Positions 1,791-33,990 are shown, counted from the first letter of the stretch. The stretch is DNA of 64,000 nt from Planctomycetaceae bacterium (GCA_006969385.1 CP030884.1:4272249-4336248), one strand, 5' to 3'. The notes: a model not told the origin generated them from the letters alone. Made by a program: numbers and translations.

Positions 1791-2642
1791 ATGCAATCCA
1801 TTCGCCTATTGATGGCCTGCCCCGACGCCCGCGGGATCATCGCCGCCGTCACAGAGTTTCTGGCGCGACGCGGCGGCAACATCATCGACGTCGATCAGCA
1901 CACCTGCCCGCAGCACGGTGATTTTTTTATGCGGCTGGAGATCGATCCGGAGGGTTTCGAAATCACCGAAGACGCGTTTCCCGCTGTCTGGGCGGAAGTC
2001 GCGGCACGACATCGGATGCGTTGGCGTATCGGTTGGCCCGGCCATCGTAAGCGACTTGCGATTCTCGTAAGCACTGCCGGGCATTGCCTAAATGACTTAC
2101 TCTTTCGTTGGCACACGGGCGAGTTGACGGCCGAGATTCCGCTGGTGATTTCAAATCACGATGCGTTACGCGCGCGGGCGGAAGCCGCCGGCATCGCGTT
2201 TCATCATCTGCCGATCCAACCGAACGGTAAGGCGGAACAAGAAGCGCAGATTAAGCAACTAATCGAGCAAACCGACGTCGATACGATCGTGCTCGCGCGT
2301 TACATGCAAATTCTCTCGCCCGAGTTTGTCGCTTCGTATCCGAATCGCATCATCAATATCCATCACAGTTTTCTACCCGCATTCGCCGGTGCCAAACCGT
2401 ACCATCAGGCATTCGAGCGCGGCGTGAAGTTGATTGGCGCGACGAGTCATTACGTTACCGATGATCTCGACGAAGGGCCGATCATCGCGCAGCAAACGCT
2501 CGCCGTGAACCATCGCGACGACATTCCGGATATGGTCCGCAAAGGACGTGATCTCGAACAATGGGTGCTCGCCCGCGCTGTGCGCTATCACATCGAAGAT
2601 CGTATCATCGTCAGCGGCAATAAGACGGTTGTCTTTGATTAG
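1791..2642 (+). CDS. purU: Formyltetrahydrofolate deformylase PurU
   Basis: 283 aa, the usual family length. An N-terminal ACT domain (about 1-80, starting RLLMACPDARGIIAAV) precedes a formyltransferase-fold catalytic domain. The catalytic stretch INIHHSFLPAF is near residue 191 and TDDLDEGPII near 225, giving the Asn-His-Asp set of this fold. PurU hydrolyses 10-formyl-THF to formate and THF and balances one-carbon pools for purine synthesis. The gene stands alone between a divergent exonuclease gene and a convergent regulator gene. No strong Shine-Dalgarno site is visible before the ATG. Confidence 0.92.
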   Translation: MQSIRLLMACPDARGIIAAVTEFLARRGGNIIDVDQHTCPQHGDFFMRLEIDPEGFEITEDAFPAVWAEVAARHRMRWRIGWPGHRKRLAILVSTAGHCLNDLLFRWHTGELTAEIPLVISNHDALRARAEAAGIAFHHLPIQPNGKAEQEAQIKQLIEQTDVDTIVLARYMQILSPEFVASYPNRIINIHHSFLPAFAGAKPYHQAFERGVKLIGATSHYVTDDLDEGPIIAQQTLAVNHRDDIPDMVRKGRDLEQWVLARAVRYHIEDRIIVSGNKTVVFD

Positions 2643-2887
2643 CCGAGTGGAACCTATCGCGTGCGCATTGCGGACGAAGCGTTGAGATGCTACGCGCGGA
2701 ATCCTACGCCAAAGGCGTTGCGCCAGTTGCCCCGGGGTTGATGCGCAGCAGTTACCCTGGGTTACGCGTGTCAACTCAAGGCTTGCAATACTGAAAGTGT
2801 TGCGGCATGCCGTAGAGGGACGGAACTCCTTCAGGTTTCGAAGATACGTTGCCAACCTTTCCCCGGCGTCGCCGCTTCCCGTCACCA

Positions 2888-3736
2888 TCACGCTGCGATC
2901 ACCGGCATCCAAATCTCCGTCACCAAATCTTCCGGCTTGGTTTTGCGCGGATCGTTCATATACACCTCGCGCGACGGCGGATCGCCCAACCGATATTGAC
3001 GACCGTCGATCTTGTGTTGCGCGATATGTCCAAACAGCCGACCGTACGTTTCACCTAGCGAGTCGTAGGCACCGCGGTGCGTCGTGACGGCAAATGCGCC
3101 TGCCGGCAGGTCCGTCAGTTGCACGTCACCCTTCACCTTGGTGCCGGGCTTTACGACCATGCAGGCGTCGTAGCGCAGCTTTTCCGCCGGCGTGACGTCC
3201 GGGTCATCGTGGCACAGCCCAAACGTTTCCAGCTTACCGAACATCATTTTGCTCCAGCCCCATTTCATCAGCGCGCCCCACGTATCGCCGACTGCTGTGT
3301 ACGGCCCGACATGTCGGACCGCGGCGACCGTGCAGGCGGGGCGCGTTTCGATGCGGACGTCGATCGGTTCGCTCGTCGTGGGTTTACTCGTGGTGGTCAT
3401 GGCGATTCTCTCCTTGCGAAAGACGGACGGGTTGGTGCCGAATTGGCGCTGAAAGGCGCGCGAAAACGCCTCGTGGCTGCCGTAGCCAACATCGAGTGCG
3501 ATCGCCAGGATATCGTCTTCGGTTTGGCTCAGCCGATATGCCGCCCGTTCCAGGCGCAGCCGCCGCACATACGCACCAACCGTCTCACCCGTCAGCCCGC
3601 GAAAGAGCCGATGGAAATGAAACGGCGATAGGAATGCCGCCGCGGCCACCTCTTCTAAGGCCACGTCTTCAGCAATGCGCGCTTCCAACAGGCGACAAGC
3701 GGCGTCGATTTGTTCCCGGTAATCCGCTCGATTCAT
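2888..3736 (-). CDS. AraC-family regulator with GyrI-like effector domain
   Basis: 282 aa. Residues 1-105 form the double helix-turn-helix of the AraC family, here at the N-terminus (FLSPFHFHRLFRGLTG, then ALDVGYGSHEAFSRAFQRQF). Residues about 125-282 match the GyrI/Rob C-terminal ligand-binding fold (VRHVGPYTAVGDTWGAL). The arrangement resembles Rob/SbmC-linked regulators that sense small hydrophobic compounds. The regulon is unknown, and no efflux gene is adjacent. It lies 70 bases downstream of dnaE on the same strand and might be co-transcribed, though the functions are unrelated. Confidence 0.88.
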   Translation of the reverse strand: MNRADYREQIDAACRLLEARIAEDVALEEVAAAAFLSPFHFHRLFRGLTGETVGAYVRRLRLERAAYRLSQTEDDILAIALDVGYGSHEAFSRAFQRQFGTNPSVFRKERIAMTTTSKPTTSEPIDVRIETRPACTVAAVRHVGPYTAVGDTWGALMKWGWSKMMFGKLETFGLCHDDPDVTPAEKLRYDACMVVKPGTKVKGDVQLTDLPAGAFAVTTHRGAYDSLGETYGRLFGHIAQHKIDGRQYRLGDPPSREVYMNDPRKTKPEDLVTEIWMPVIAA

Positions 3737-3806
3737 ACCCGTATTGTGCCGCGCTGAGAAATCGCTCGCTTGATCGGATTTGCGGTTACAAAAAACGTTT
3801 CCGGAA

Positions 3807-6800
3807 CTAACTCCGCATCCGTTTGCCCACCAACGACACAGCCCCTTCGCCGAGCAGATCTTCGATTCGATTGCGAAACGCCGCGTCGGGTAACACGCGC
3901 AAGCGGCTGTCGCAGCGCATCCAGACCGACATTTTCTGTGGGATTTGCAGGTTCAACATAAACGACTGCTCGCCGGGATGCTCGCGGCAGATCGACTCGA
4001 TTTCCCTTAACCGCTCGGGCATCAATCGATCGCCGTTAACGCGTAAAATCAAGGCATCGGCCAGGCGTGCCGGGCCTTCCTCAAACGGAATGACCTCGCT
4101 CACGCGCAGTGCGGGTTCTTCCCGTTTGCGATCGACCTCACCTTGCAAAAAGACAATCTGATCGGGGGCGATCAACTCGTGATATTTCTTGAGCTGTTCG
4201 CTAAACACGATCGCCTCCAGCCCGCCCGACAGGTCTTCAAAGCTGAGCACCGCCAGCTTCGAGCCCGCGTTGCGGCCGCTCTTGGTCGTGACCATCCGAA
4301 TGCGGCTGATCATGCCGCCGAGTACGACTTTGGCACCTTCACCGTAGTGTTGCAGATCGCGACAGTCCGCCGTGGCAAACTGTCGAAGCGTTTGTTCGTG
4401 CGCGGCCAGCGGATGCTTGGTGACGTAGAAGCCCAGCACCGCCTTTTCATTCGTCAGCATCTCGGCTTCGGACCATTCTTCGCTGCCGATGCGATGGGAT
4501 TCGTCGGTTTCAGCACTGCCGCCACCGAAGTCACCGAACATGGTCATCTGACCGGCGCTTTTATCCTTTTGCGAACTCGCCCCAGTCTTGAGCGCGCCGT
4601 CCAAGGCTTCGATCAACGCTTTGCGCATCGCGCCCGTCGTATCGAATGCGCCGGCTTTGATTAAGGCTTCGCACGCGCCACGGTTTACGGCGGACAGATC
4701 GATACGCTCGCAAAAATCGAATAGGTCTTTGAATTCCCCATTCGCATCGCGTTCCTGCACGATCGCTTCCATCGCCTTTTGTCCGACGCCCTTAATCGCG
4801 GCAAGGCCGAAACGAATAAAGCCGGGCTTCTCGCCCTTGCCCGGCACCGGCGTGAAGTCGACGCCGCTGCTGTTCACATCCGGCGGCCGCACTTCGATCT
4901 GCAGCCGCTTGCACTCCTCCATATAGTCGCTGACTTTGTCGGTATCGCCCTTGTCGTACGTGAGCAACGCCGCCATGAATTCGAGCGGGTAATACGCCTT
5001 GAGGAATGCGGTCTGGAATGCGACCAGCGCGTAACCGGTCGAGTGTGCCTTATTGAATGCGTACTCACCGAAGGGGATGATTTGGTCGAAAATTTCCGTC
5101 GCCGTTTTGCGCGGCACGCCTTTCTCGACAGCCCCCGAGATAAACGGTTCGCGTTCCGCTTCGATCTTATCGATCTTCTTTTTGCTAATCGCTTTGGCCA
5201 AGCGGAACGCGCGTTTGCGCTCCACGCCGCCGAGCTGATTGACGAGCCGTGCGACCTGTTCCTGATAAACGATAATACCATAGGTCTCGGCCAAGACTTC
5301 CGACATGATTGGATGCGGCGTTGTCCAACTGCCGCCGTGCTTGCGCTCGACGTAGGGATCGATATTGACCATCGGCCCCGGGCGATACAGCGCGTTGGCG
5401 GCGATCAAGTCTTCGATACGGTTCGGCCGCATCTTCATCAAGACGCCGCGCATGCCGCCCGATTCAAACTGAAAGACGCCCTTGGTTTCACCCGCAGCGA
5501 AAAGTCGATACACCTTTTGGTCCGTCAGGTCGAGGTCTTCAACGTTTATCTTGATACCGTAGTTTTCTTCCACCAGCTTGACGGTGAGCGCAAGCACGCT
5601 CAGTGTCTTCAACCCAAGGAAGTCCATCTTCAACAGACCGACCTGCTCGACTGTAGGGCCGTCGTATTGTGTGACCATCACACCCGAGCCCGGCGGTTGG
5701 TACAGCGGCAGCAAATCGTCCAAGGGTTGCTCGGCGACGACCACGCCCGCCGCGTGAATGCTGGTGTTGCGGGCGAAGCCTTCGATACGGCGACCGACAT
5801 CGATCACTTTTTTGATCCGCTCGTCGGTATCGTAAAGACGTTTGAGATCGGGTTCGCGATCCAGCGCCTTATCGAGCGTCATCTTCAGCTCTTCGGGCAC
5901 CATCTTGGCCACACGATCGGCCTCTGCCAAAGGTACGTCCAACACGCGGCAGACGTCGCGAATCGCGGCCCGCGCTTTGAGCGTTCCAAAGGTGATGATC
6001 TGTGCGACGTGTCCGTACTTTTCGCGCACGTATTGAATCGTCTTTTCGCGACTATCCTGACAAATGTCGATATCGATATCGGGCATTTCGTCGCGATCGG
6101 GGTCCATGAAACGCTCGAAATACAGGCCGTAATGCATCGGGTCGGGCTGCGACAAATACAGGCAGTGCGCGACGACCGACGAGCAACCGCTGCCGCGCGC
6201 TCCACACGGGATATCATGGCGACGGGCGTATTGCACGAAGTCCCAGACGATCAGGAAGTAGCTCGAAAAGCCCTTGCTTTGGATCACATCCAATTCAAAA
6301 TCGATACGCTCGCGCAGTTCGTCGGTTACTTCGTCGTAGCGTTCTTCCGCTCCTTGATAGACGAGTTCGCGCAGGTAGTCTTCCGGCGTTTTTTCATCGG
6401 GTGCGTGATAGACAGGCGTGTAGCGTTTGTTGAAGTCGAGTTCGAGATTGCACTTGTCGGCGATTTCGACGGTGTTGGACAGCGCTTCTGGGATCGAGGG
6501 GAAGAGGCTGGCCATCTCTTCGTTGCTTTTTAAATAGAACTCGTCGGTCTCGAACCGCATGCGATTCTCGTCGGATACCAGTGCCCGCGTGGACACGCAC
6601 AGCAACACATCGTGCGGTTCGGCATCGTCCTTCTTTAAGTAGTGCACATCGTTGGTAACAATCAAACCGATACCTTTGCGGTTGGCAATTTCAATTAACT
6701 CGGGATTGATGGCACGCTGGTCTTCGATGCCGTGATCTTGTAACTCCATGTAGAAGCGCTCGGGGCCGAACACCTTAAGGTACCAATCGGAATGTTCTTC

Positions 6801-7283
6801 CGCCAGCGCCCGATTCTTTTTGATCAAAGCTTGGGGGATTTCCGCACCGAGGCAGGTGCTGGTGCAGATTAGACCTTCGTTAAACTCTTCCAGCACTTCA
6901 CGGTCGATACGCGGTTTGTAATAGAAACCATCGCGATAGGCCGTGGACGTTAATTTCAATAGGTTGCGATACCCCTGCATATTTTGTGCAAGCAGCAACA
7001 GGTGGTAGCTCGTCTCACCATCGATGGCTTCGCGCAATTGGCGATCGCCCGGCGCGATATACGCCTCCAACCCGATGATCGGCTTAATTCCCGCTTTGTT
7101 AGCGGCCTCATAGAATTCGATCGCGCCAAACATGTTGCCATGGTCGGTAATCGCGACGGCCGGCTGTCCCAGCTCCTTCGCGCGATTGACCAACTCGCCG
7201 ATGCGGTTGCAACCATCGAGCAGGCTATAGTGAGTGTGGCAGTGTAGGTGAACGAAGTTGGATGCGGGCGGCGTGTCGGCCAT
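3807..7283 (-). CDS. dnaE: DNA polymerase III alpha subunit DnaE
   Basis: 1158 aa, the normal size of replicative DnaE1. It starts with a PHP domain (HLHCHTHYSLLDG, AITDHGNMFG). The palm follows with GARGSGCSSVVAHCL and the catalytic PDIDIDIC near residue 400, matching the two aspartates of the Escherichia coli enzyme. MKMDFLGLKTL and the finger and HhH regions (ALYRPGPM, EYAFNKAHSTGYA, AAIKGVGQKA) come next, then a C-terminal OB domain. It is the chromosomal replicase. The start MADTPPASNF at 7283 fits the family. A 235-base divergent region separates it from a lipoprotein gene. Confidence 0.97.
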   Translation of the reverse strand: MADTPPASNFVHLHCHTHYSLLDGCNRIGELVNRAKELGQPAVAITDHGNMFGAIEFYEAANKAGIKPIIGLEAYIAPGDRQLREAIDGETSYHLLLLAQNMQGYRNLLKLTSTAYRDGFYYKPRIDREVLEEFNEGLICTSTCLGAEIPQALIKKNRALAEEHSDWYLKVFGPERFYMELQDHGIEDQRAINPELIEIANRKGIGLIVTNDVHYLKKDDAEPHDVLLCVSTRALVSDENRMRFETDEFYLKSNEEMASLFPSIPEALSNTVEIADKCNLELDFNKRYTPVYHAPDEKTPEDYLRELVYQGAEERYDEVTDELRERIDFELDVIQSKGFSSYFLIVWDFVQYARRHDIPCGARGSGCSSVVAHCLYLSQPDPMHYGLYFERFMDPDRDEMPDIDIDICQDSREKTIQYVREKYGHVAQIITFGTLKARAAIRDVCRVLDVPLAEADRVAKMVPEELKMTLDKALDREPDLKRLYDTDERIKKVIDVGRRIEGFARNTSIHAAGVVVAEQPLDDLLPLYQPPGSGVMVTQYDGPTVEQVGLLKMDFLGLKTLSVLALTVKLVEENYGIKINVEDLDLTDQKVYRLFAAGETKGVFQFESGGMRGVLMKMRPNRIEDLIAANALYRPGPMVNIDPYVERKHGGSWTTPHPIMSEVLAETYGIIVYQEQVARLVNQLGGVERKRAFRLAKAISKKKIDKIEAEREPFISGAVEKGVPRKTATEIFDQIIPFGEYAFNKAHSTGYALVAFQTAFLKAYYPLEFMAALLTYDKGDTDKVSDYMEECKRLQIEVRPPDVNSSGVDFTPVPGKGEKPGFIRFGLAAIKGVGQKAMEAIVQERDANGEFKDLFDFCERIDLSAVNRGACEALIKAGAFDTTGAMRKALIEALDGALKTGASSQKDKSAGQMTMFGDFGGGSAETDESHRIGSEEWSEAEMLTNEKAVLGFYVTKHPLAAHEQTLRQFATADCRDLQHYGEGAKVVLGGMISRIRMVTTKSGRNAGSKLAVLSFEDLSGGLEAIVFSEQLKKYHELIAPDQIVFLQGEVDRKREEPALRVSEVIPFEEGPARLADALILRVNGDRLMPERLREIESICREHPGEQSFMLNLQIPQKMSVWMRCDSRLRVLPDAAFRNRIEDLLGEGAVSLVGKRMRS

Positions 7284-7518
7284 TGAAATTCCCTTGCCTC
7301 CATGCGGGAAAGCGTAAAAGTCTGCTCTTTGAGTCCAGACGACTGTTATACAGCGGTGGCATATTCTGCACTGGCTTCGAAAATTCTCGCGAATTTGGTT
7401 ACCATGCGCGAGAGGCCGGATTATACCGGATATGTGGGCATCAGGATCGGTCGCTCAATATGTGGCCTGTGACATTCATTTTGCAGGCGATCCTTTGGGC
7501 CGAACGGAGAGGAACGCG

Positions 7519-20360: not shown

Positions 20361-22304
20361 ATGCCACGGACGGCGACCATCAATGAGACCTTCCTTGCCA
20401 ACATGCGCCAGCTCTGGCGCAGCGACCCGCCCCTGGCATGGGCCATCGATCAGCTACCATGCGATGCGCGCTTGACCGTCTTCGAATCGCGCAAAGGTCC
20501 ACCGACTGCCAGCGTCACGACCGAAGACGGTCGCACGCTATTTCTTCACAGTAAATATGATCCGCAACGCGAAGCCACCGAGCTTTGCAAACAACTCGAT
20601 GCCGAGCGTGCCGCGTGCGTCGTGCTCAACGGCTTCGGCCTCGGCCACGCGGTAACGGCAATTCACGAGCACCTTGGTAGCGATACGGTCGTGTTCGTCA
20701 CGGAACCCGACTTGGTTACGATTAAGACGGCGCTGGAAGAAGTCGATCTGGCGCGCGAGCTAGCAACCGGCCATGTGCGAATCATCACGCGACTTAACAA
20801 AGACTACCTACACGACACGCTAACGCCCTATTCGACGCAACTGATGCTCGGCACCGTCTTCGCTGTTCCGACGGTCGCGCGCGACCATCACGCAGTATTC
20901 CACGAACAAGCGCGGCAGGCGATTCTCGATTATGCATCGTTTGCGAAGATGTCGCTCACGACATTGGTACGCAACGCGGAAGTGACTTGCCGCAATATTG
21001 CAAACAATCTTCCGACCTACATCACGACGCCACCGCCAGATTTGTTAAGGGGCGCGTGCAAAGGCCTGCCGTCGGTATTAGTCGCCGCCGGTCCATCGCT
21101 GCGAAAAAATATCGCACAACTCGCCACGTTGCGCGATAAAGCCATCATCATCGCCGCGCAAACGACGCTGCGGCCATTGCTCGAACGCAACATCGTTCCC
21201 CACTTCGTCACGACGCTTGACTTCAGTGACTTGTCGAAACACTTCTTCGAGGGTTTGCGCATTCCGGAAGAAGTTATTCTGGTCGCAGAGCCAAAGGCGT
21301 CTTGGGCTGTAATCGATGCGTTTCGTGCGGCCGTGGTGGGTACGCCGCGCGTGGTGATGCTCGACAATAAATTTGCGCGACATTGTTTGGGGGATCGCCT
21401 TGCCGGTCGCGCGCGAATCGAACCCGGTGCGACCGTCATGCACCTCGCGTTTTATTTAGCGCAATGGCTGGGTTGCGATCCGATCGCATTTATCGGCCAA
21501 GATTTATCCTTCGGCGATCACACGTACTACGCCCCCGGCGTCGAAATGCACCGCACGTGGCAACCCGAATTGGGCCGCTTTAGCACGCTCGAAATGAAAG
21601 AGTGGGAACGCATCGCGCGACACCGCCCGATCCTGCGCCGAGTAGAAGGCATCGACGGCACGACCATTTACACCGACGAACAGATGCATACCTATTTGCA
21701 ACAGTTCGAGCGCGACTTTGCCCGCGCGCCGCAGACCGTGATCGACGCAACGGAGGGTGGTGCCCGCAAACAGGGCGCCGAAACAATGACGCTTGCGGAA
21801 GCGAGTGCAAAGTGGAAATCATCGGTTGCAAACTGGGCGACGCCGTTATCGCGCTACACGTGGGCCAATCTCGCGTTGGTACCGGAGGCGGTTCGCGCGT
21901 TGAATGAGCGTATGGCATCGCTCGATCAATTTGAAGCCTTATGCCGTGAGACCGAAAGTATCCTAGTCGAATTAGAAACGCTGATTGAACGCCCCGACCA
22001 ATTCAATCGCCGCATCGCGCGCGTGGATGAACTGCGCACGCTGGTTCAAATGCAAGGCCTGATTTTTCGCATGGTGCGCGACGTATCGCAACAGGCCGAG
22101 TTGCGCAAAATTTCCTCCGATCGTCGCCTCTCGAAGGACACGCCGGATGATGCAATGCGTGCGCGACGGCAACTGCGGCGCGATCGCAGCTTTATCGAAT
22201 CCATGTTGGACGGCTGCGCGCGTTTGCGACGCATTTTGCGAGACGCCGTTGAACGATTCGATCATCACGCGGTGAATGGAAATGACGAAGGTGGCCAACC
22301 ATGA
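20361..22304 (+). CDS. DUF115 / Maf-like protein (motility accessory factor family)
   Basis: 647 aa. The central part (about residues 225-450) is the DUF115 (MptE/Maf) domain: PSVLVAAGPSLRKNIAQL, IIAAQTTLRPLLERNIVPHF, GCDPIAFIGQDLSFGDHTYY and GATVMHLAFYLA. Flanking parts are alpha-helical. Maf proteins transfer nonulosonic acids to flagellin, and archaeal relatives make pterin diphosphates. The stop overlaps the start of the next gene (ATGA at 22301-22304), so translation is coupled. With that neighbour it probably forms a glycan-modification pair. No flagellin gene is in the window, so the acceptor is unknown. The start has no clear ribosome-binding site. Confidence 0.82.
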   Translation: MPRTATINETFLANMRQLWRSDPPLAWAIDQLPCDARLTVFESRKGPPTASVTTEDGRTLFLHSKYDPQREATELCKQLDAERAACVVLNGFGLGHAVTAIHEHLGSDTVVFVTEPDLVTIKTALEEVDLARELATGHVRIITRLNKDYLHDTLTPYSTQLMLGTVFAVPTVARDHHAVFHEQARQAILDYASFAKMSLTTLVRNAEVTCRNIANNLPTYITTPPPDLLRGACKGLPSVLVAAGPSLRKNIAQLATLRDKAIIIAAQTTLRPLLERNIVPHFVTTLDFSDLSKHFFEGLRIPEEVILVAEPKASWAVIDAFRAAVVGTPRVVMLDNKFARHCLGDRLAGRARIEPGATVMHLAFYLAQWLGCDPIAFIGQDLSFGDHTYYAPGVEMHRTWQPELGRFSTLEMKEWERIARHRPILRRVEGIDGTTIYTDEQMHTYLQQFERDFARAPQTVIDATEGGARKQGAETMTLAEASAKWKSSVANWATPLSRYTWANLALVPEAVRALNERMASLDQFEALCRETESILVELETLIERPDQFNRRIARVDELRTLVQMQGLIFRMVRDVSQQAELRKISSDRRLSKDTPDDAMRARRQLRRDRSFIESMLDGCARLRRILRDAVERFDHHAVNGNDEGGQP

Positions 22305-23935
22305 CGCAAAACGTCATCACCGCCATCTATGTCGACCTCGAGACCAATCCTCTCGGCTTAACAGCGCGTTTGTCACACGAACTCGCCGGTAAGCCAGTCC
22401 TGCGACATACAGTGGAACGTGCCCTCGCCATCGATGCTGTCTCGTCAACCCACATTTTGTGTCACGCCTCGCAACGCTCGGCCGTTGCCGATTTACTTGC
22501 AGACTTGCCCGTTACGCTGGACACGCATCAGGCACCCGCCCCTCCTTATCAAGACTTGGTCCGCAGTTCGCGCAGTTGGGGGCTCGATGGTTGGCGCGGC
22601 GGCATCGGCTCGCTGTGCACGTTCGATGAAGATTGCCACGGTGAATTGCTGGCCGCGCTCCAACATAAAACGAATGCCGATTCGATACTCACGATTCCCG
22701 CAGCGGCACCCTTGATCGATCCGGAACTATGCGGCGCGCTGATCGCCCATCATCGCGAGTTTATACAAGCGTCCGAATTGACCATCGTGCAAGCGCCACC
22801 GGGATTGAACGCGTTGGTCATGTCGGCCAACACGATTCAGCAGTTGCGGCAGATCGCCATGCCGCCGGGCGCGCTGCTGGTTTACCAACCCGATAGCCCG
22901 GTCGCCGATCTGACCGGTCGGGAAGGTTGTTACCGCCCAGCCACGGAAATTGTTCATGCGTCAGGGCGATTGTTAGCGGATACACAGCGTTCGTGGGAAC
23001 GCATCGGGCGCGTTGTTGAAGCCGGTGGTTTGAATTGGGACGCAGCGCGAATAGCGCAGTGGCTGATCGACGATAATTCGCAACGAATTGATGACGCGCC
23101 ACGCGAGATCGAAATCGAACTCACGACCGAGTGTCAATTCGCCACCAATGACCTGGCCTATCCGCGTGGTGAATACGTCTCCTCTCGCGGCCCATTAACC
23201 GTATCCGCAATAGAAAGCGTCACGTCAATCTGCCGGCGCTACGACGATATACGCGTCATGCTCGGCGGTTTCGGCGAGCCGACGTTGCATCCGCAATTTG
23301 CCGACATCTGCCGACAACTACGCGATGCTGGTGCATTAGCAATCGGCGTACGCAGCAATGGGCTCGCAATCCCCAAAGCTGCGGAATCTGCATTATTTGA
23401 AACCCCCGTCGATGTTATCGAAATCACACTCGATGCGGCAACGCCGGAAACGTACCAACGCATGCACGGTCGCGACGGTTTCGAGACAGTCGTCGCCACG
23501 ATGGAGCGGCTCATGCAACGTCGGCGCGACATGCAATCGGTGCGGCCTTTAATCGTGCCGTCGATGGTGAAGTGTGCCGAAACGCTCGACGATCTGGAGC
23601 AATTCGTCGATCGCTGGCAGCGAGCGTTTGGGATGTACGCCTTGCGCGGCATCAGCGACTACGGCGGCAGTTGGCATCCCGAGCGCGCCGTGCGTTTCTC
23701 CACCGCCCCCGGAAGTTGCACCGGTTGCCGCCGCGCCCGCACGCGATTGATGATACTGGCGGATGGTACGGTGACGACATGCGATCAGGATTTCGCCGGC
23801 AAGCAGGCGCTGGGCAACTTGCGAAACGACGGCCTTGAAGCGCTGTGGCAGTCAAACGCAATCAACACGGCGCGGATCGGAGCATTTTCGAGTTTACCGT
23901 TGTGCCAAAACTGCCAAGAATGGCACCGACCGTAG
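22301..23935 (+). CDS. Nucleotidyltransferase-like + degenerate radical SAM/SPASM fusion
   Basis: 544 aa. Residues about 1-230 resemble a SpsF/CMP-sugar-type nucleotidyltransferase (ARLSHELAGKPVLRHTVERAL, DADSI-type core). Residues about 268-470 have the radical SAM scaffold: EIELTTEC at the cluster site, GGFGEPTLHPQFADIC and VRSNGLAI. A SPASM-like tail follows with CTGC, TTCDQDF and LCQNCQEW. The cluster motif C-x3-C-x2-C keeps only C278. The second and third positions are Thr282 and Leu285. Radical chemistry is therefore doubtful unless ligands come from elsewhere. It overlaps the DUF115 gene by 4 bases and probably acts on the same glycan or peptide. Confidence 0.75.
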   Translation: MTQNVITAIYVDLETNPLGLTARLSHELAGKPVLRHTVERALAIDAVSSTHILCHASQRSAVADLLADLPVTLDTHQAPAPPYQDLVRSSRSWGLDGWRGGIGSLCTFDEDCHGELLAALQHKTNADSILTIPAAAPLIDPELCGALIAHHREFIQASELTIVQAPPGLNALVMSANTIQQLRQIAMPPGALLVYQPDSPVADLTGREGCYRPATEIVHASGRLLADTQRSWERIGRVVEAGGLNWDAARIAQWLIDDNSQRIDDAPREIEIELTTECQFATNDLAYPRGEYVSSRGPLTVSAIESVTSICRRYDDIRVMLGGFGEPTLHPQFADICRQLRDAGALAIGVRSNGLAIPKAAESALFETPVDVIEITLDAATPETYQRMHGRDGFETVVATMERLMQRRRDMQSVRPLIVPSMVKCAETLDDLEQFVDRWQRAFGMYALRGISDYGGSWHPERAVRFSTAPGSCTGCRRARTRLMILADGTVTTCDQDFAGKQALGNLRNDGLEALWQSNAINTARIGAFSSLPLCQNCQEWHRP

Positions 23936-23960: not shown

Positions 23961-24902
23961 CTAACCTTGCCGCGATTCCCAACGCGTAACAGCCTCCGCC
24001 AGCGTTTCAAACTGAAACGACTCGAGCAACCGATGCAGTCGCGTTTCGATCCGCTTGCGGAACATTCCTTGCGTCATGCCGCGCCAAGGCGAAAAGCGAA
24101 GGCCATCCCAGCGGTGCTCCTGAATGCCATCGATATCCAATTCGTACGGATGCATATACAACACAGCCAGTTGACCGCGTCGATTGCTCAGCGATATCGC
24201 TGTTCGTACTAACTGCCCCGGCAGTAACCGAAAGTATCCACCTCCGGCAATCGGCATGCTCCGACCGACCACGCGCACCGTGGCCGGCGGCGCCTCGATC
24301 AATTGCATTGCTGCCCAGCGATGAAACTCGCGCGGCGCGTTGGCAATGCCATAGCGCGGGTGTCGAATCGGAAACACGCTTGAGTCGTAGCGTAGCCCCA
24401 ACCGCTGCAGGATTTCTCCCGCCCAACGCGTCTCTTCGACAATACTAAACGCCGGCGCGCGATAGCCGATCGGTCGCGTGCCCGTCAACATGGTCAGAAT
24501 ATCGATGCTGCGTTGTACGTCCTCTTCAAAGCGATCGGGCGTAATATTCGTGAGCAGTTCGTGCCCATGCCCGTGCGAGGCGATTTCGTGACCGTCGTCC
24601 TGCACCATGCGAATCAAATCGGGATAGCGGTCGGCAACCTTGGTGAGCACGAAAAACGTCGCTCGCACATTGTGCCAGCGCAGGATGCGCAGAATTTGTT
24701 TCGTATTGTCGACCACGCGGCCGGAAATCTCGTGCTGCGGCCCGAGTACCGCAATCGGCCAATCCTCAAGATCGACCGTGAAGACGTTGCGCACAGTCTT
24801 ATCGACCGGCGACTGCTGCCGGATGGTTCGATCGTTTTGGGTCGGCGCGCGAGCGACCGTCGCTTGCCGCAGCATCGGACCCGATTCGATTGCGCTCGCC
24901 AT
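23961..24902 (-). CDS. Polysaccharide deacetylase, PEP-CTERM/exosortase-locus type
   Basis: 313 aa. A NodB domain is visible: FTVDLEDW (about residue 42), RATFFVLTKVADRYPDLI, HEIASHGHGHELL with the metal histidines, and GYRAPAFSI. The C-terminal part (SMPIAGGGYFRLLPGQLV, AVLYMHPYELD) matches the DUF3473 extension of deacetylases from PEP-CTERM-linked exopolysaccharide loci (TIGR03006 type). It probably removes acetyl groups from an N-acetylated surface glycan. It lies 24 bases after the M16 peptidase gene on the same strand and ends facing the DUF115 pair. The exosortase itself is not in the window, but a PEP-CTERM substrate is (54645-55331). Confidence 0.85.
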   Translation of the reverse strand: MASAIESGPMLRQATVARAPTQNDRTIRQQSPVDKTVRNVFTVDLEDWPIAVLGPQHEISGRVVDNTKQILRILRWHNVRATFFVLTKVADRYPDLIRMVQDDGHEIASHGHGHELLTNITPDRFEEDVQRSIDILTMLTGTRPIGYRAPAFSIVEETRWAGEILQRLGLRYDSSVFPIRHPRYGIANAPREFHRWAAMQLIEAPPATVRVVGRSMPIAGGGYFRLLPGQLVRTAISLSNRRGQLAVLYMHPYELDIDGIQEHRWDGLRFSPWRGMTQGMFRKRIETRLHRLLESFQFETLAEAVTRWESRQG

Positions 24903-32476: not shown

Positions 32477-32823
32477 AGCGATTTCCTACTGAATCCAAGT
32501 TCGCGTATCGACACACCGCCTCGCTGCGATGCGGCGTTATCCTCAATACCTCGCCGAAACCGCAAAGGCGCGGAAAAGGCGTAAACCCTTAACTATACCC
32601 CATTTCTGAGGGTCGGCAAGGCCTATATTTACAAACTCAGCGGCAAATTTGGCCCCTGCAACGCATGGATTTCGGCCGTATCGAGAATACATCTCGGCCA
32701 GTTGGGCGAAGTCGAAAACCCGCGGCCAGCCCGCATGGAACCGTAGTTTGCGACCGGTCAGTCGGCTATATTGCTTCGACTACGCAATTTACCCCGCTTA
32801 CAACGCTGAGGAGTCCCCAGCAT
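32477..32823. other. Divergent intergenic region rpsP / arsM-like gene
   Basis: 347 bases without a convincing gene. It must hold both promoters. It includes an AT-rich stretch around 32590-32640 and, just before the methyltransferase ATG, GAGGAG as ribosome-binding site. No operator resembling an ArsR site could be assigned. Confidence 0.5.
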
Positions 32824-33990
32824 ATGGCCATACAAACGCAAATGGACGTGGAACAAGCCGTGAAGGACCGCTATTCCGGCGGCGCCAGGCAGGTCGAAGA
32901 AGGCCTCTGCTGCCCGTCGTCCACGTACGACCCCCGCTATCTCGATGTCATTCCGCAAGAAATCATCGAAAAGGACTATGGCTGCGGCGACCCCACCCAA
33001 TGGGCGGCGACCGGCGATGTGGTGCTCGACCTCGGCTCTGGCGGCGGCAAGGCCTGCTACATCATTTCCCAGCGGGTCGGCCCCGAGGGACAGGTTATCG
33101 GCATCGACATGAATGACGACATGCTCGGCCTGGCGCGAAAGTACCAAACCGATATTGCCAACAAGATCGGTTACGACAACGTCTCATTCCGCAAGGCCCG
33201 CATTCAGGATCTCAAACTCGACCTCGACCAAGCCGCCGCGTGGCTGGCCGAACATCCGGTCACAACCGTCGATGACATGGCGGCCTATGAAGCCTGGTGC
33301 GAAAAACAGATGGACGCCGAGCCGGTAGTCGCGTCCGACAGCGTCGACCTGATCGTTTCCAATTGCGTGTTGAATTTGGTGAAGCCTGCCGACAAGGCGC
33401 AATTGTTTCAAGAGATGTTCCGCGTGCTCAAGCGCGGCGGTCGCGCCGTCATCAGCGATGTGGTGAGCGACGAAGATGTGCCCGATCACATGCAGCGCGA
33501 CGAGAACCTCTGGAGCGGATGTATCAGCGGTGCCTATCGTGAAGACCTATTCCTGAAAGCCTTCGAAGATGCCGGCTTCCATGGCGTCGAAGTCTTAAAT
33601 TACGAATCGCAACCGTGGCAGACCGTCGAAGGAATCGAATTCCGCTCGATGACGGTGCGCGCTTACAAAGGCAAGCAGGGCCCCTGCTACGAACACAATC
33701 AAGCCGTGATGTACAAGGGACCTTTTTCGGCAGTGACGGACGACGACAACCATCGCTATCCGCGCGGCGTGCGCATCGCTGTCTGCAAAAAAACCTTTGA
33801 CTTGCTTCGCACCGGCCCATACGCCGAGCAGTTTGCGTTCATCGAACCGCGCGAAGCGATCGACGCGGCCAATGCCAGAGAATTCGATTGTCGACGTACG
33901 GCCATCCGCAACCCGCGTGAGACCAAAGGCATGGAATACAACGCGACGACCGAAGCGGAATCGTGCTGCGGACCGGAAGGGTGTTGTTAG
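32824..33990 (+). CDS. arsM: Arsenite methyltransferase ArsM, long arsenosugar-type
   Basis: 388 aa from ATG 32824, with GAGGAG upstream. The open frame before it is not coding. A class I methyltransferase core (VVLDLGSGGGKACYIISQRV, GIDMNDDMLGLARKYQ, DLIVSNCVLNLV, VISDVVSDEDVP) is preceded by GLCCPSSTYDPRYLDVIP (Cys29, Cys30). It ends in a Cys-rich tail CCGPEGCC. Paired thiols of this kind bind As(III). The extended N- and C-terminal parts match the ArsM group found with arsenosugar genes. It should methylate arsenite with S-adenosylmethionine. An adjacent ArsS is absent. A related-pathway glycosyltransferase is at 27975-28655. Confidence 0.85.
   Translation: MAIQTQMDVEQAVKDRYSGGARQVEEGLCCPSSTYDPRYLDVIPQEIIEKDYGCGDPTQWAATGDVVLDLGSGGGKACYIISQRVGPEGQVIGIDMNDDMLGLARKYQTDIANKIGYDNVSFRKARIQDLKLDLDQAAAWLAEHPVTTVDDMAAYEAWCEKQMDAEPVVASDSVDLIVSNCVLNLVKPADKAQLFQEMFRVLKRGGRAVISDVVSDEDVPDHMQRDENLWSGCISGAYREDLFLKAFEDAGFHGVEVLNYESQPWQTVEGIEFRSMTVRAYKGKQGPCYEHNQAVMYKGPFSAVTDDDNHRYPRGVRIAVCKKTFDLLRTGPYAEQFAFIEPREAIDAANAREFDCRRTAIRNPRETKGMEYNATTEAESCCGPEGCC

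Follow-up and report, generated by a model that had tools for sequence, protein, structure and literature searches.

A radical-SAM-like fusion protein without its SAM-cluster cysteines as a probable non-radical partner of Maf-type flagellin glycosyltransferases in Planctomycetota

Radical-SAM enzymes make up one of the largest superfamilies of enzymes, and proteins that only resemble them are routinely labelled as radical enzymes. The CxxxCxxC motif (or a variant of it) binds the [4Fe-4S] cluster that reduces SAM. A protein that keeps the fold without this motif is encoded at 22301–23935 on the + strand of a 64,000-nucleotide stretch of DNA from a Planctomycetaceae bacterium, which we refer to as the window. 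At the place of the SAM cluster this ORF reads ELTTECQFATNDLAYPRG, with C278, T282, and L285 where CxxxCxxC is expected, and GGFGEPTLHP is found at residues 322–331, C-terminal to the cluster loop. An initial annotation had correctly noted both the C278/T282/L285 substitution and the retained GFGEPTLHP, and proposed that the scaffold either now serves glycan transfer as a non-radical binding module or holds its cluster with unusual ligands.

The ORF starts with ATG and encodes 544 amino acids followed by a stop. Its start overlaps the stop of an upstream maf-type gene (20361–22304, + strand) in the sequence ATGA (22301–22304, + strand). All parts of the fusion protein lie on the + strand. The N-terminal domain (residues 1–243, 22301–23029) was assigned the fold of an SpsF/KdsB-like cytidylyltransferase from structure and sequence matches to 6oew, and its catalytic motifs are altered. 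The radical-SAM-like partial barrel (residues 262–455, 23084–23665) was assigned by comparing residues 262–544 of the model with BtrN (4m7t; Z 22.7). It contains the former cluster loop (residues 277–297, 23129–23191), where CxxxCxxC is absent and L-R-P-R-G-x-x-V-x-x-R-G is common to relatives, and a G-G-F-G-E-P motif (residues 322–327, 23264–23281), which by column conservation is the equivalent of the SAM-binding GGEP. The Twitch domain (residues 470–544 and the stop, 23708–23935) was recognized from its Cys columns, C476-x17-C494-x40-C535-x2-C538, and a sequence match to BtrN. With Pfam, the Radical_SAM match (PF04055, E 7.7e-10) began only at residue 304, SPASM (PF13186, E 3.4e-11) matched residues 476–539, and NTP_transf_3 was a weak match. 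An AlphaFold2 model built from 54 alignment rows (pLDDT 93.4, pTM 0.93) predicts a cytidylyltransferase-like domain followed by a barrel like that of BtrN. The gene has no internal stops and the frames are open across the relatives' genomes. Compared with its genus mate, dN/dS was 0.12 for the whole gene and about 0.10 each in the barrel and the N-terminal domain, so both are under purifying selection.

A match to the fusion protein was found in all but 2 of the 61 relatives' genomes, with four of the weaker matches being partial. Conserved absence of the cysteines, which together with an intact frame the initial annotation had named as support for its claim, was observed in each set of sequences. 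The CxxxCxxC triad occurred in 0 of 63 aligned rows of the order-wide set, in 0 of the 57 usable loci among 62 that came from scanning named genomes (almost all with Phycisphaerae or Planctomycetota as their title), and in 0 of 42 ORFs with the full architecture among those fetched in a search across the phylum; these three sets overlap. The phylum search gave a family match in 75 of 392 genomes. Over 105 partly redundant rows, 102 had no Cys at any of the three triad columns and 3 had one. Only the window protein and its genus mate have Cys at position 278, where 47 of 63 rows have Asp. Because C278 is limited to the window's genus, it is a late lineage-specific change and no surviving ligand. 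Thus, where two of three cluster cysteines had been described as lost, all three are absent family-wide.

The loop itself has not been held constant. Mean entropy was 2.3 bits at loop columns 278–286 versus 0.54 bits in the flanking strand just before it, and 0.5 bits in the GGEP-like motif. Few columns vary as much as the three triad positions, which carry indels and gaps across relatives. The L-R-P-R-G-x-x-V-x-x-R stretch common to relatives lies C-terminal to this variable loop. Within GGFGEP, G323 was found in 62 of 63 rows, G325 in 63 of 63, and P327 in 62 of 63. With GG-x-G-[ED]-P so strongly conserved in the alignment, the protein may have kept the ability to bind SAM or a different ligand.

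Close relatives with a full CxxxCxxC could have exposed a sequencing error or a single-strain mutation. The search for them yielded only separate, more distant radical-SAM/SPASM proteins. These triad-bearing proteins are present in the same genomes and share the barrel and Twitch, but have no N-terminal domain, and a quick maximum-likelihood tree places every one of them across one branch from the family (SH-aLRT 99). The simplest history would be a single loss of the triad preceding the spread of the family. By fold and ancestry (a partial TIM barrel with a GGEP-like motif) the window protein belongs to the radical SAM superfamily; as an enzyme, defined by CxxxCxxC or a variant, neither it nor any of its relatives does. 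Two proteins with other fusions were also seen. At L152:1402–3096 (+ strand), from a planctomycete, a WbqC-like domain is fused to a radical-SAM/SPASM protein with intact CxxxCxxC, an architecture that looks undescribed, and at L154:2116–4500 (+ strand) an ATP-grasp domain is fused to a canonical radical-SAM/SPASM protein.

Twitch domains have 4 Cys for their clusters and SPASM domains have 7–8. In the order-wide set, C476, C494, C535, and C538 were each kept in 62 of 62 complete rows. From this Cys pattern, the C-terminus is a one-cluster, four-Cys Twitch like that of BtrN, and not the full Cys-rich, two-cluster SPASM end of the initial annotation. The protein thus belongs among the SPASM/Twitch domain proteins as a Twitch type, with the cluster itself predicted. 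The auxiliary cluster of BtrN is fully Cys-ligated, has a very low potential, and is retained in the C16A/C20A/C23A mutant (PMC9012708). Since this triad mutant still assembles its Twitch cluster, the fusion protein would by analogy be expected to hold one cluster.

The nucleotidyltransferase call of the initial annotation agrees with the fold of the N-terminal domain. Residues 2–269 superposed on 6oew, an SpsF-like cytidylyltransferase of Leptospira, with Z 22.4 over 219 residues and on KdsB with Z about 17, and 6oew was also matched by sequence (E 1.5e-7). The domain shares the fold of the CTP_transf_3/SpsF-KdsB cytidylyltransferases, but their catalytic motifs, S-x-R-L-P-x-K and GD-x-P, are replaced, including the catalytic Lys and the metal Asp. 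Canonical L-P-G-K corresponds to L-x-S-R in the family, with Arg for the catalytic Lys in 51 of 63 rows. Canonical G-D-C-P-L-I-D corresponds to P-A-x-A-P-L-[IL]-D, with Ala, His, Gly, or Glu for the Asp in most rows. In the 63-row alignment, the most conserved block of this domain is R91-x-W93...W98-R99-G100-G101...D109-E110, and P167-G168, R223, and D227 are also strongly conserved; D227, D109, E110, R91, R99, and R223 are nearly invariant. These invariant Arg, Trp, Asp, and Glu residues could belong to an active site that has changed but still works.

NeuB was found in 61 of 61 relatives, weakly in one, and in 46 of 60 genomes a separate cytidylyltransferase-family gene lay no more than 2.5 kb away from it. 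The window's own genome has a cytidylyltransferase adjoining NeuB with an intact ARGGSxGLPGKN motif. With this separate enzyme beside NeuB, activation of the donor sugar needs no fusion protein. The distance between NeuB and the module is about 4 kb in four genomes from three families (G017, G022, G028, and G042), and a UDP-GlcNAc 2-epimerase accompanies NeuB in the two of these that were checked, G017 and G022.

The upstream gene encodes a 647 amino acid protein that matched PF01973 (MptE-like/Maf) with E 5.9e-34. Its AlphaFold2 model (pLDDT 88.6) aligned with the Maf of M. magneticum, 5mu5, with Z 23.3 over 528 residues (VIA-align), and its central domain aligned with CMP-sialyltransferases with Z about 8–9. 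The upstream protein thus has the full three-domain arrangement of a Maf flagellin glycosyltransferase, a central PF01973 domain with N- and C-terminal Maf domains, and is predicted to transfer nonulosonic acid. Maf enzymes move nonulosonic acids onto flagellin (PMC11339370). The DUF115/Maf identity proposed for the neighbor therefore stands, and the translational coupling proposed with it is plausible from the ATGA overlap. Both genes occur in 59 of 61 relatives and are adjacent on one strand in 55 of them; the remaining 2 relatives have neither. Maf was also found in 17 of 17 further phylum genomes with a family member, in several of them non-adjacent. Flagellin was found in 59 of 61 relatives and in 27 of 30 phylum genomes, a co-occurrence confounded by shared ancestry given that nearly every genome within the order has everything.

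Other genes were noted around these loci. At L163 (G088:C5) two different Maf genes, 2316–4022 and 5599–7422 (– strand), flank the pseudo-radical-SAM gene. In the window, an XrtA-type polysaccharide deacetylase at 23961–24902 (– strand) is convergent with the fusion gene; as only the genus mate, of all loci compared, has it in the same place, we do not count it as belonging to the system. A methyltransferase-like ORF at 32665–33990 (+ strand) has a Cys-rich tail, ESCCGPEGCC, of a kind that recalls arsenite methyltransferases.

In the phylum-wide set, 15 ORFs, mostly from one clade, carry Maf and the pseudo-radical-SAM protein in one frame. In this Phycisphaerae clade Maf, NTP domain, and barrel are in one ORF and the Twitch Cys are also lost. 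Fewer than three Twitch Cys were found in 14 of the 15 fused ORFs, although rows were added at fixed alignment length, so that a single Twitch Cys may be misplaced, and the tails were read by eye. A Fisher p value for fusion versus Twitch loss was set aside, since most of the fused rows belong to a single clade. Several fused ORFs have a vestigial Twitch sequence, for example MMILSDGAVLSDERDAAG. Fusion and loss of the Twitch Cys are not strictly tied to each other: L229 is fused, lies on a separate branch, and keeps all four Twitch Cys, and L231 and L232 have lost them without fusion. The W98-R99-G100/D109-E110 signature survives in nearly all rows, fused ORFs mostly included. Loss of the Twitch Cys while this signature survives points to iron-sulfur sites that are dispensable and an N-terminal site that is kept by selection. 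We regard as evenly balanced the proposal of a double-pseudoenzyme Maf subunit, in which the SAM cluster was lost throughout and the Twitch cluster was kept in the two-gene form and lost after fusion, giving an iron-free three-part enzyme. Three phylum genomes have no flagellin; one is 79% complete and the others, G355 and G420, are 97–98% complete. In the fused genes of G355 and G420 the Maf part lacks both flanking domains and keeps the central domain, and G311, a genome of the same family with flagellin, has a longer Maf match. These two cases of Maf trimming in genomes without flagellin are suggestive, not proof.

Together, these data support the idea that the fusion protein is probably a non-radical accessory subunit of the upstream Maf. 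Catalytic motifs are altered in the cytidylyltransferase-like domain as well as in the radical-SAM-like barrel, and these two parts would form a scaffold that contacts Maf and works with it as Maf puts CMP-activated nonulosonic acid onto flagellin. We favor a role for the N-terminal domain in binding CMP-sugar or nucleotide because its signature persists where every iron-sulfur ligand has gone. The barrel and Twitch would be structural, perhaps holding flagellin, and the Twitch domain would carry one structural [4Fe-4S] cluster. The subunit thus probably binds donor or acceptor, and radical chemistry by the fusion protein is very unlikely. The well-kept GG-x-G-[ED]-P, the invariant residues of the N-terminal domain, and the confounded flagellin co-occurrence count against the accessory-subunit reading. 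Of the two possibilities raised by the initial annotation, the non-radical glycan-transfer module is the better supported, given the conserved loss of three ligands, the obligate partnership with Maf, and the Maf gene fusion.

The main rival to an accessory subunit is a CMP-sugar synthetase still at work in the N-terminal domain, which would make the donor and hand it to Maf, with the radical-SAM part alone being dead. The SpsF/KdsB fold and the nearly invariant D227, D109, E110, R91, R99, and R223 argue for this in that the site is under selection. Nucleotidyltransferases of other subfamilies lack the Asp of G-D-C-P-L-I-D, so its replacement in most rows is not decisive. However, the Lys of LPGK is Arg in most rows as well, and a cytidylyltransferase with intact motifs is found elsewhere in the same genomes, mostly adjoining NeuB, so we consider an active synthetase unlikely.

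Less likely still is that the Twitch cluster serves as a redox or oxygen sensor gating flagellin glycosylation. Such a sensor would account for four Cys that are invariant in the two-gene form though no radical chemistry remains to be served, but Twitch is dispensable in the fused clade and the fully Cys-ligated cluster of BtrN has a very low potential (PMC9012708). A radical-SAM enzyme with its SAM cluster held by unusual ligands fits the retained barrel, GGxGEP, and the Twitch Cys of the two-gene form. We nonetheless give this reading very little weight and rejected it because the cluster loop is highly variable, with indels at the triad positions, and because one clade is without Twitch ligands too. 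Nothing beyond the absent Cys speaks for a decaying pseudogene or a sequencing error, and this has almost no probability. The dN/dS of 0.12 and the open frames reject a pseudogene, as the initial annotation had held, and the relatives, with conservation across the phylum, refute an error.

If the accessory-subunit reading is true, this family is a clear case of non-radical reuse with a defined partner, in which loss of iron-sulfur sites can be traced step by step. For flagellin glycosylation in Planctomycetota it yields a prediction that can be tested, and it offers a lead on the unnamed role of spiro-SPASM proteins. In the literature searched, with most subscription journals outside it, we found nothing relevant on spiro-SPASM or pseudo-radical-SAM proteins with Maf and no paper on planctomycete flagellin nonulosonic acids or glycosylation; nor did these searches turn up a Maf with a further subunit fused to it or with a pseudo-radical-SAM protein as its dedicated partner.

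As a comparison, the best named match of the window protein was the spiro-SPASM family, NCBIfam TIGR04321 (residues 224–542, E 1.2e-35). At 123.2 bits against a curated cut-off of 250, it is a relative and not a member, and none of 59 sampled genomes reached this cut-off. Distant members of the planctomycete family align to TIGR04321 from profile position 75–96 on, and a shared architecture seems likely. When Cys-added fragments were scored, each added triad Cys gained about 2.8 bits in TIGR04321 versus about 5–6 in canonical models, which suggests, as judged from profile scores alone, that most spirochaete seeds are without the triad. Plasmid matches in a search for spirochaete members were canonical radical-SAM proteins. 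One plasmid, pBHWA1 of Brachyspira hyodysenteriae, carries several consecutive radical-SAM/SPASM genes in a glycan-type cluster (L172:1590–6840). The pseudo-SAM/SPASM family of haloarchaea, NCBIfam TIGR04347, is a named radical-SAM/SPASM look-alike that matched one relative, L072 (29 bits, E 5.1e-7). It is from another lineage, has a cut-off of 525 bits that was not reached, and does not appear among the 25 matches listed for the window protein.

Among solved structures, the closest fold to residues 262–544 is BtrN (4m7t), a Twitch radical-SAM dehydrogenase (Z 22.7, rmsd 2.7, 230 residues), although these residues superpose on other SPASM/Twitch enzymes too. BtrN was the only PDB sequence match at E below 0.001, with a Twitch i-E of 1.6e-9. 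The four-Cys Twitch is common to both proteins, whereas BtrN alone has CxxxCxxC and radical chemistry and is without the N-terminal domain; its C16A/C20A/C23A mutant is an artificial analogue of the window protein. The upstream partner is like the Maf of M. magneticum (5mu5) and that of C. botulinum (PMC11339370) by fold over all three domains. Proteins of the pseudo-SAM/SPASM kind are thus already known. What seems to be new is a family that spans the phylum, is tied to Maf and in places fused with it, and has lost the ligands of both clusters step by step.
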